A DNA stretch of 36,180 nucleotides from Sulfurovum sp. (GTDB lineage: Bacteria > Campylobacterota > Campylobacteria > Campylobacterales > Sulfurovaceae), in the NCBI GenBank assembly GCA_027065815.1, contig JAMONL010000153.1, positions 1 through 36,180 on the forward strand, read 5' to 3'. The position numbers and the translations under genes were made by a program. How positions within the stretch are numbered: the stretch's first letter is position 1; every line of letters begins with the position of its first letter. A model generated the notes under the pieces. That model was not told where the DNA came from and searched no databases. It saw only the letters and a program-made list of their open reading frames with translations. This document shows, one piece after another, positions 13,903 through 16,965 of the stretch.

Positions 13903-15054
13903 ATGGAAGAGTTTGAAATAGATATAGTAGAAGCGAAGTGTACAACAAACGGTGCAAAAATAAAAGCAATCGGTGTAGGTGGTGGTGGTGGAAACATGAT
14001 CAACCATATGATACAGGAGGGAATCAACAGTATTGACCTTATTGTTGCCAATACAGATGCACAGGCATTGGATTCTTCACTTGCACCATTCAAAATGCAA
14101 TTGGGAATGAATGCAACCAGAGGTCTTGGTGCAGGAATGGTTCCAGACAAAGGTAGAGAAGCAGCCCTGGAAAGTTTTGAAGATATCAAAACGATGCTAG
14201 AGGGTTCTGACATTGTCTTTATCTCTGCCGGCCTTGGTGGCGGTACAGGTACAGGTGCTGCACCTATCATTGCACAGGCAGCAAAAGAAGTTGGTGCATT
14301 GACTGTTTCCATTGTCACCTCTCCTTTTAAATTTGAAGGTAGAAAAAGAACCAAGCTCGCCAAAGAAGGTTTGGAAGAACTTAAAAGAGAGAGTGACTCT
14401 ATTATCGTGGTTCCAAATGAAAAACTTCTTTCTATCGTTGAAAAAAATCTCGGTATCAAAGAGAGTTTCAGAATGGTAGATGATATTCTTGCGCAGGCAG
14501 TCGGCGGTATCTCAAAAGTGATCCTCTCTCATGGAGACAATGACATCAACCTTGACTTTGCCGATGTAAAGACCGTTATGGGTCACAGAGGTCTTGCACT
14601 AATGGGTGCGGGGTACAGTACAGGAACAAATGCAGCCTATGATGCAGCAAAAGCAGCGATTGAATCTCCACTGCTTGACAATATCTCTATTGACGGTGCG
14701 ATGGGTGTACTTGTACACTTTGACATTCACCCAGACTACCCTATTATGGAGATCGGTGAAGCAATGAATATCGTTGAAGAGTCAGCAGATGAAGATGCAT
14801 CTGTGATCTTTGGTACAACAACCAATGAGAACATGGATATTGATGAAGTCCGTATTACAATCGTTGCAACCGGATTTGAAGATAAAAATGCTATTGCAGA
14901 GCCTACGGTAAGAAAGCAGGCAACACTTCCTGACTCAAATACAACAACGATTAATACGCTTAGATCTGCGAACAGAATGGTTGTTGGCGGGTACAATGGG
15001 GATCATGAAGATATCCTTGATGTTCCTACTTTCCTCAGAAAGCAAATGGACTAA
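13903..15054 (+). CDS. ftsZ: cell division protein FtsZ
   Basis: 383 aa; KAIGVGGGGGNMINHMI, ANTDAQAL, GLGGGTGTGAAPIIAQAAKE, C-terminal DILDVPTFLRKQMD. Confidence 0.98.
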   Translation: MEEFEIDIVEAKCTTNGAKIKAIGVGGGGGNMINHMIQEGINSIDLIVANTDAQALDSSLAPFKMQLGMNATRGLGAGMVPDKGREAALESFEDIKTMLEGSDIVFISAGLGGGTGTGAAPIIAQAAKEVGALTVSIVTSPFKFEGRKRTKLAKEGLEELKRESDSIIVVPNEKLLSIVEKNLGIKESFRMVDDILAQAVGGISKVILSHGDNDINLDFADVKTVMGHRGLALMGAGYSTGTNAAYDAAKAAIESPLLDNISIDGAMGVLVHFDIHPDYPIMEIGEAMNIVEESADEDASVIFGTTTNENMDIDEVRITIVATGFEDKNAIAEPTVRKQATLPDSNTTTINTLRSANRMVVGGYNGDHEDILDVPTFLRKQMD

Positions 15055-15077: not shown

Positions 15078-15110
15078 AGACAAAGAGCTTCTTCCCTCTT
15101 TGTCTCTTTT
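15078..15110 (+). terminator. rho-independent terminator after ftsZ
   Basis: Perfect 10 bp stem AGACAAAGAG / CTCTTTGTCT with 8 nt loop CTTCTTCC, followed by a T-rich tract (CTTTTCTTAATTTTT). Confidence 0.8.
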
Positions 15111-15201: not shown

Positions 15202-15783
15202 ATGAAATACATTAAAAAATTCACTACTATTGCCACGGTAACAGGTCTTGGCGCACTCCTTGCCACAGGTATTACAGGATGTACCGGAAATTCGGGTCAG
15301 CAACAGGAAGAGGTACAGGCGAAAGGTGCCTTTGTCATCATAGAAGAAACAGCTCCCGGAAAATACAAGATCAAAGATGAATTCCCTGCAGATGAAACAC
15401 GTATCGTACTGAAGCAGCTTGATGGTGTGGAACGTGTCTTGACCAAAGAGGAGATGGACAAGCTTGTCAAAGAAGAAGAAGCAAAGATCGATAATGGCAC
15501 TTCACAGTTGACACAGAAGAACCCTGAAGTTTCACAAGGCATGGGCTTAGGCTCAGTCCTCCTTTCCAGTATTGCCGGTGCGATGATCGGTTCGTATATA
15601 GGAAACAAGCTTTTTGGAAACCAGAACTACCAAAACAACCGTAAAGCAGGATACAAATCTCCATCAACCTACTCTCGTTCTCAGAAAAGTTTTTCAAAAG
15701 CGAAAAAAACCACTTCAAAAAGATCCGGATTCTTTGGCAATAAAAAGAGTTCAGGGAAAAAAGGCGGATTCTTTGGAGGGTGA
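15202..15783 (+). CDS. UPF0323-type lipoprotein with a glycine-zipper segment and GFFGG-rich C-terminus
   Basis: ORF 15169..15783; the internal ATG at 15202 gives a better signal peptide: MKYIKKFTTIATVTGLGALLATGITGC (lipobox TGC). GSVLLSSIAGAMIGSYIGNKLFG is Gly-zipper-like; C-terminus is RSGFFGNKKSSGKKGGFFGG. Confidence 0.75.
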   Translation: MKYIKKFTTIATVTGLGALLATGITGCTGNSGQQQEEVQAKGAFVIIEETAPGKYKIKDEFPADETRIVLKQLDGVERVLTKEEMDKLVKEEEAKIDNGTSQLTQKNPEVSQGMGLGSVLLSSIAGAMIGSYIGNKLFGNQNYQNNRKAGYKSPSTYSRSQKSFSKAKKTTSKRSGFFGNKKSSGKKGGFFGG

Positions 15784-15786
15784 TGC

Positions 15787-16965
15787 ATGATACAGCTACA
15801 AAAAACTGCACCTCTTGACACTGACTATCTTGAATCCTTAGGCTTTGTCTGGCATACAGACTCTGATGACACTTCATATATTTCGGATGAACTTATTGTC
15901 ATTTCTGAAGCAGAAGCGGAAGCCTACTATAAAGCAACAAACGAACTTTATGATATGTTCGTGGAAGCTGCCGAACATGTGGTTGAAAACAATCTCTTTC
16001 ATGAAATAGGCATCCCGTTTAATCTGGTTGATGTCATTAAAGAGTCTTGGGAAAATGATGTACATTGGCATCTCTACGGACGTTTTGATCTTGCAGGCGG
16101 CATTGATAACAGACCCATCAAACTGCTTGAATTCAATGCAGATACACCTACAGCACTTTTTGAAACTGCCATTGTACAATGGGCAATTTTAAAACAAAAC
16201 AATTTGGAAGAAGAGAGTCAATTTAATGCACTCTATGAAGTACTTGTTGACAACTTTAAAAGACTGGTCACACTTGAAGAGGATGTCTCTACCTTTGAAG
16301 AACATTATGACGGTTGGAATTTCCTCTTTACTTCTGTACGTGGAAACTCTGAAGAAGAGAATACAGTCAGACTGCTTCAACACATTGCGGAGGAAGCAGG
16401 ATACAACACTGAATTCGCATATATTGATGACATCGAATTTGATGCCAATGAGGGTATCTTCTATAACGATACCAACTATGAACTCTGGTTCAAACTCATC
16501 CCCTGGGAAGATATTGCTCTGGAAGAATCCGATCTGGCAATGTTGTTGACAACTATCATCAAAAATAAGAAAGCGATCATTTTCAATCCGGCATACACCC
16601 TACTCTTCCAGAGTAAAGGAATATTGAAAATATTATGGGATCTTTATCCGGATCACCCACTTCTGCTTGAAACTTCTTTTGAACCGTTAGAGGGTCAAAA
16701 ACAGGTAGAAAAACCTATATTCGGTAGAGAAGGCGGTTCAGTCACGATAGTAGATGAGAATAACCAGAAAATACTTTCCATAGAAGGTGACTACGACAGC
16801 CATAAAATGGTCTATCAGGCCTATACGGAACTTCCTACAGACAATGAAGACCAAAGCTATCAGGCTGGTGTTTTTTATGCCTATGAGGCTTGTGGACTTG
16901 GCTTTAGAAAAGGTGGGAAGATCTTAGATAATATGTCTAAATTTGTAGGGCATATCGTTAAGTAA
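15787..16965 (+). CDS. glutathionylspermidine synthase-like ATP-grasp protein (YgiC/YjfC family)
   Basis: 392 aa; YGRFDLAGGIDNRPIKLLEFNADTPTALFETAIVQW, LLETSF, KPIFGREGGSVTIVDE typical of the GSP_synth family. Confidence 0.88.
   Translation: MIQLQKTAPLDTDYLESLGFVWHTDSDDTSYISDELIVISEAEAEAYYKATNELYDMFVEAAEHVVENNLFHEIGIPFNLVDVIKESWENDVHWHLYGRFDLAGGIDNRPIKLLEFNADTPTALFETAIVQWAILKQNNLEEESQFNALYEVLVDNFKRLVTLEEDVSTFEEHYDGWNFLFTSVRGNSEEENTVRLLQHIAEEAGYNTEFAYIDDIEFDANEGIFYNDTNYELWFKLIPWEDIALEESDLAMLLTTIIKNKKAIIFNPAYTLLFQSKGILKILWDLYPDHPLLLETSFEPLEGQKQVEKPIFGREGGSVTIVDENNQKILSIEGDYDSHKMVYQAYTELPTDNEDQSYQAGVFYAYEACGLGFRKGGKILDNMSKFVGHIVK

Follow-up and report, generated by a model that had tools for sequence, protein, structure and literature searches.

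The locus considered here raises the question of what a stand-alone ligase of the GSP_synth family acts upon when its gene lies directly behind that of a small lipoprotein with a glycine-rich tail. The window is the whole stretch of DNA analysed, 36,180 nucleotides from Sulfurovum sp. (contig JAMONL010000153.1). The original prediction described a lipobox protein with a GGFFGG tail and, four nucleotides after its stop, an ATP-grasp protein of the GSP_synth family lacking an amidase half, and both genes were confirmed by profile searches (NF003146, 275.6 bits, for the product of 15202–15783; PF03738, 430 bits, for that of the gene behind it). The features of the locus are as follows:

15078–15105, + strand: terminator-like stem-loop 3' of ftsZ (13903–15054), between ftsZ and the pair (10 pairs, 4 of them G-C, with a T-rich tail; a weak candidate, the stem-loop count being close to that of shuffled sequences)
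15202–15783, + strand: UPF0323 (NF003146/PRK04081) lipoprotein of 193 aa, with ATG at 15202 and stop codon TGA at 15781–15783
15202–15282, + strand: signal peptide and lipobox (...TGITGC) read from the sequence, the lipidated Cys being residue 27 (C27, invariant in alignment A3)
15547–15618, + strand: glycine-zipper-like hydrophobic segment LGSVLLSSIAGAMIGSYIGNKLFG, read from the sequence and kept in alignment A3 as LGExILASAAGAIIGSWIGNKLFN
15721–15780, + strand: C-terminal tail RSGFFGNKKSSGKKGGFFGG, with an internal [RK]SGFF motif, a linker and GG-COOH; candidate ligase substrate, on the basis of 90 distinct Campylobacterota homologues and of the cross-phylum tail
15787–16965, + strand: stand-alone GSP_synth ATP-grasp ligase of the YgiC/YjfC type, 392 aa (PF03738, AlphaFold model, invariant active-site residues)

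The lipoprotein and its ligase as a pair

Three bases separate the stop codon of the lipoprotein from the ATG of the ligase, which thus starts four bases past the stop. The match of the lipoprotein to NF003146/PRK04081 covers residues 1–192 against a cut-off of 194 bits, and the lipobox residue C27 and the zipper residues G126 and G130 are invariant across alignment A3, placing the protein in this family, the name of which we take to be UPF0323. A segment of the protein reads GSVLLSSIAGAMIGSYIGNKLFG, and its sequence ends in GGFFGG. No family was matched by the window lipoprotein in a Pfam search, and single-sequence structure prediction gave a pLDDT of 41, too low to be informative. The location just after ftsZ had been read as a sign of an envelope role, an argument that has to be abandoned: in a survey in which many other loci had too little upstream sequence to reveal ftsZ, this neighbourhood was confined to the family of the window (4/5 relatives), and it therefore carries no weight for such a role.

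The ligase matches Pfam PF03738 (GSP_synth) with an E value of 9.6e-129 (cut-off 29.3 bits), its residues 13–391 aligning with positions 3–371 of the 371-position profile. Against PRK10507, the bifunctional glutathionylspermidine synthetase/amidase, it scored 120 bits for a threshold of 882 and aligned with profile positions 228–586 only, with no amidase half. Among solved structures, E. coli YjfC (7uk6/7uk7) and YgiC (7uk8/7uka) are the closest to the window ligase, whose AlphaFold model (pLDDT 88.3) has 7uk6 (YjfC) as its best PDB match, with a TM-score of 0.88. Residues R316, D318, E330, N332, K498, K533, R538 and R598 of E. coli Gss, which we take to be its ATP, magnesium and substrate residues, have equivalents in the window ligase, YgiC and YjfC; in the window ligase, R99, D101, E115, N117, K277, K309, R314 and R374 are invariant across 76 diverse ligases. 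Gss thus shares the ATP-grasp fold and catalytic residues with the window ligase but differs in possessing an amidase half. The resemblance to the E. coli pairs YgiB-YgiC and YjfM-YjfC is closer, extending to gene order, tight spacing, ligase family and catalytic residues (about 32% identity), although YjfM lies in a PspA operon and the window pair does not. The RefSeq name for both YgiC and YjfC is peptide--spermidine ligase, following Pederick et al. (2023), and in vitro peptide-spermidine ligase activity is announced for them in the title of that paper, as cited in PMC12568646. Fold and catalytic residues suggest that the window ligase is a stand-alone enzyme of the YgiC/YjfC type, for which peptide-spermidine ligation is predicted.

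Both genes were found in 134 of 150 Campylobacteria genomes and neither in the other 16, a split not equivalent to 150 independent observations, as the sampled genomes are related. The lipoprotein gene lies directly upstream of the ligase gene on the same strand in 123 of the 134; the remaining 11 keep both genes without tight adjacency, and the tails are intact in the seven of these examined. One genome (G086) initially counted as having a lipoprotein without a ligase proved to be a spurious match to an unrelated coiled-coil protein with no tail. The absences are spread over seven taxonomic groups, several of them nested in families whose other members retain the pair, which makes repeated joint loss probable. 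Co-occurrence, co-loss and adjacency show the lipoprotein and the ligase to be a unit. A gene-neighbourhood survey had been proposed as a check on conserved linkage, and the linkage holds both in these 123 genomes and well outside Campylobacterota. In one genome (G113; locus L051:1474-2821), two tandem UPF0323 copies, both with the GG tail, precede a single ligase gene.

Cj0371-Cj0372 of Campylobacter jejuni is presumably an orthologous pair of the same class. In published work, Cj0371 figures as a factor in virulence and in chemotaxis (PMC4944492, PMC6104132), with no mention of a lipoprotein or a ligase in PMC4944492. The lipoprotein might, accordingly, be a chemotaxis regulator acting on CheV, given the pull-down of Cj0371 with the receiver domain of CheV and its effect on the activity of CheA (PMC6104132), together with the hypermotility of the C. 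jejuni mutant (PMC4944492). However, no CheW-domain protein was found in the window's genome, which is 86% complete, or in nine of the ten other family members sampled (the exception being G154); flagellin is likewise missing from the window's genome and from the five members in which both were sought, yet all of these carry the pair. As a lipoprotein, the protein would, moreover, be mostly outside the cytoplasm. A role in CheV regulation cannot, therefore, be the core function and was rejected as such, this explanation of the pair being extremely improbable, whereas a secondary effect on chemotaxis in C. jejuni could still occur.

A tail common to unrelated lipoproteins

Tails of the Campylobacterota homologues consist of an [RK]SGFF-like motif, a variable Ser-rich linker and a small end residue, which is Gly (46), Ser (39) or Ala (4) in 89 of 90 distinct proteins. 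In Helicobacter-like genomes (L031-L041), the tails terminate in GFNS or GFNA in place of GG or GS, and keep the SGFFGSS motif; it is thus the end residue that has drifted. The UPF0323 tail of genome G122 (L044), SGFFWRRKFF, has no G/S end and looks like a frameshift or an assembly error. In E. coli, YgiB, encoded directly upstream of YgiC, ends in SSRSMGG, and YjfM, directly upstream of YjfC, has the tail SRGGYGRSSSARGHWGG, ending in RGHWGG, so that both share the tail architecture of the window protein (RGGFG/RGGYG followed by GG). The two E. coli pairs and the Gly end of YgiB had been part of the original prediction, and the sequences and gene order proved it correct on these points. Plasmid- and phage-borne partners from Vibrio, Rhizobium, Sulfitobacter, Pseudomonas, Acinetobacter, Deinococcus, Bacillus, Arthrobacter, Achromobacter, Sinorhizobium and Aeromonas follow the same tail design.

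The generality of the tail was examined in a held-out set of 80 viral and 80 genome contigs, fetched with the ligase only, after the tails had been seen. A viral scan with a single E. coli protein as the query found nothing, and the viral loci were obtained with an alignment-based scan. A strict tail pattern, fixed after the plasmid and phage examples, was searched for in same-strand ORFs within 1.5 kb; it was found at 68/80 genome loci against 5/2240 other ORFs, and at 61/80 viral loci against 8/1926 (a background of 0.2–0.4%). The pattern was broadened only for a second count, in which the core motif, whatever the end residue, occurred within 450 nt upstream at 76/80 genome loci, compared with 48/4536 far ORFs; the strict 1.5-kb scan is thus the cleaner test. 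It left 12/80 genome and 19/80 viral loci with no tail ORF; most of the 12 do have the core motif, with a different final residue, whereas about ten viral loci show none. Among same-strand genes immediately upstream of the ligase, a G, S or A end is seen in 40/46, against 5/41 one position further away, and 17 of the 19 GG-ending neighbours at any position lie there. The tail consensus is R-G-G-F-G, a median of 10 residues and then [G/S], and the ORFs bearing it are mostly lipoprotein-like. The 80 genome loci cover 15 phyla, and partners are known besides from Campylobacterota, Deinococcota and Bacillota; at least 17 phyla have the pair. Jumbo phages often carry the lipoprotein–ligase pair (viral loci L121-L200), and a DUF350/YjfL-like gene lies near it in 19/80 viral loci.

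The suspicion that unrelated lipoproteins share this ligase partner was well founded, and they share the tail too, across phyla. The window lipoprotein has no Pfam match to DUF1190 (PF06693), the family of the E. coli partners, at E <= 1. Alignment of the UPF0323 and DUF1190 profiles with hhalign, a comparison that the original prediction had called for, extended over the signal peptide only; UPF0323 as a distant DUF1190 was accordingly ruled out. DUF1190 has four conserved cysteines and UPF0323 none beyond the lipobox. Both families nevertheless end in a [RK][GS]GF tail, which is therefore common to lipoproteins with no detectable relationship between their bodies.

A Gly-Gly end might also arise as a by-product of the Shine-Dalgarno sequence of the ligase gene. 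Such an origin is plausible in the window, where the last tail codons, GGA GGG, overlap a possible ligase ribosome-binding site. For the class as a whole, it was rejected, because the tails persist where the lipoprotein gene is downstream of the ligase (12 loci), more than 60 nt away (29) or not tightly linked (7 Campylobacterota genes), and because the GG codons are mostly GGC GGC or GGT GGT.

The emphasis on Gly-Gly itself was only partly right: GG ends are real, but the description was too narrow, the end being Gly or Ser and sometimes Ala or Glu, and the internal RGGFG/RSGFF motif some ten residues upstream, which the original prediction had treated just as a repeat, being better conserved. 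A variable C-terminus without Gly-Gly had been named as evidence against a ligase system; the end does vary, as stated, but within Campylobacterota it is almost always G, S or A. RGGFG tails ending in Glu (-GGE, -AGE or -VGE) occur at six genome loci, mostly of Acidobacteriota with one of Bacteroidota (L227, L232, L234, L237, L244 and L256), and at four phage loci (L136, L149, L162 and L163). On the ligase tree, E-ending tails require 6 changes over 10 rows, indicating only partial clustering.

Greater conservation of the internal motif than of the end residue is often seen in docking motifs, and the tail could be a non-covalent docking or regulatory element by which the lipoprotein binds the ligase, or another common partner, with no ligation of its own, while the ligase acts on a small peptide; the literature on Gsp and YgiC/YjfC indicates that enzymes of this family accept small peptides. 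Docking alone, however, would not require a small residue at the extreme C-terminus, yet one is kept across phyla although the linker varies, and a partner that ends up outside the cytoplasm is poorly sited to regulate a cytosolic enzyme. This explanation is unlikely.

Proposed modification of the tail

A recognition motif followed by a small, flexible, free C-terminus suits a carboxyl-activating enzyme, and action of the ligase on the tail is thus the simplest reading of the data. Glutathione, the substrate of the related Gss, likewise ends in Gly, and the Gss product is an amide with spermidine. On balance, it is somewhat more likely than not that the ligase binds this tail specifically and, ahead of export, amidates the carboxyl group at its end, in all likelihood with a polyamine, which would make the lipoprotein the physiological substrate of the enzyme. 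The cytosolic ATP-grasp ligase would bind the flexible C-terminal tail of its partner via the internal [R/K]-[G/S]-G-F-[G/F] motif, activate the terminal Gly or Ser carboxylate as an acyl-phosphate and couple it to a primary amine, for which spermidine or another polyamine is the likeliest candidate. Export and lipidation would follow, and the lipoprotein, its tail now capped and charged, would be anchored in the envelope, where it may have a maintenance role. With a cytosolic ligase and an exported lipoprotein, any such modification would have to precede the passage of the tail across the membrane, which appears feasible for proteins of 100–200 residues. The window pair, with its RSGFFG...GG tail, [RK][GS]GF motif and small end residue, fits this proposed class of a ligase with a tail-bearing partner. 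The lack of a strictly Gly end (Ser is common, GFNS is found in H. pylori-like genomes and GGE elsewhere) would fit a single chemistry poorly unless small residues are tolerated.

A polyamine is the most likely amine given the use of spermidine by the E. coli homologues, the presence of nspC in 150/150 Campylobacteria genomes and a gene neighbouring the pair in Achromobacter phage Motura, and it would probably serve in Sulfurovum too; being universal in the class, nspC does not discriminate in favour of this reading. In Motura (L117:1294-4119), a saccharopine-dehydrogenase-type gene annotated as a homospermidine synthase precedes the tail lipoprotein gene and the ligase gene in one operon, and relatives of the first gene occur at one viral locus (L141) and three bacterial loci (L201-L203). 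An NCBIfam check of the Motura gene did not confirm the exact name homospermidine synthase.

The activated end might instead be joined to another macromolecule, such as a protein lysine, a peptidoglycan amine or an aminolipid. Ubiquitin-like proteins and Pup have a flexible tail whose GG (or GGE) terminus may be what is activated, and the GG and -GGE ends described above resemble these. The ATP-grasp fold also includes ligases of protein C-termini: tubulin tyrosine ligase and RimK activate a C-terminal carboxyl and add an amine. These two enzymes add amino acids, however, and belong to other ATP-grasp families, so they provide a functional analogy from general knowledge; unlike the ubiquitin-like and Pup systems, the pairs displayed no E1 or PafA homologue, and the partner is a lipoprotein rather than a ubiquitin fold. 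The closest homologues of the ligase use spermidine, its fold match is to Gsp/YjfC, and peptidoglycan lies across the membrane from the enzyme. Conjugation to a macromolecule is, thus, very unlikely.

Another explanation leaves the tail unmodified: the ligase would make a soluble glutathionylspermidine-like peptide-polyamine conjugate that the lipoprotein senses or handles, the tail and ligase being linked only through the pathway. True glutathionylspermidine synthetases do belong to the ligase family, and DUF1190 operons carry PspA, DUF350 and ion-channel genes, hinting at a stress pathway (PMC11237479). It would not explain, though, why a single C-terminal tail is found on unrelated lipoproteins, and the amidase-fused Gss loci examined, which make glutathionylspermidine, had no credible tail lipoprotein. 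A soluble product is distinctly less probable than docking, if rather less remote than conjugation to a macromolecule.

Relation to earlier work and significance

The DUF1190/GSP-ATP-grasp operon has already been described, and a link between polyamines and membrane dynamics proposed for it (PMC11237479). The pair cannot, therefore, be called an undescribed ligase system in full, as first suggested, the operon and the in vitro activity (the latter from a title cited in PMC12568646) being known; the suggestion stands for conjugation to the tail, itself a conditional reading, which is not described in the literature found. The tail signature, UPF0323 as an equivalent partner and the modification of the lipoprotein appear to be new, as far as the literature found extends, key subscription papers lying outside the search, such that earlier suggestions are possible. 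The same literature names no physiological substrate of YgiC/YjfC.

More broadly, C-terminal polyamine ligation of envelope lipoproteins by stand-alone GSP_synth ligases may be a general bacterial post-translational modification, directed by a portable tail (RGGFG-x~10-[G/S]-COOH) that unrelated lipoproteins carry in at least 17 phyla, E. coli K-12 being one of the hosts, and jumbo phages may have adopted the modification as well; to this tentative generalisation we give slightly less than even chances. The tail on otherwise unrelated lipoproteins names a candidate substrate for YgiC/YjfC that can be tested in E. coli K-12. If the reading is true, it would account for the presence of both genes in large phages, and a widespread, unrecognised protein modification would tie polyamines to the bacterial envelope.
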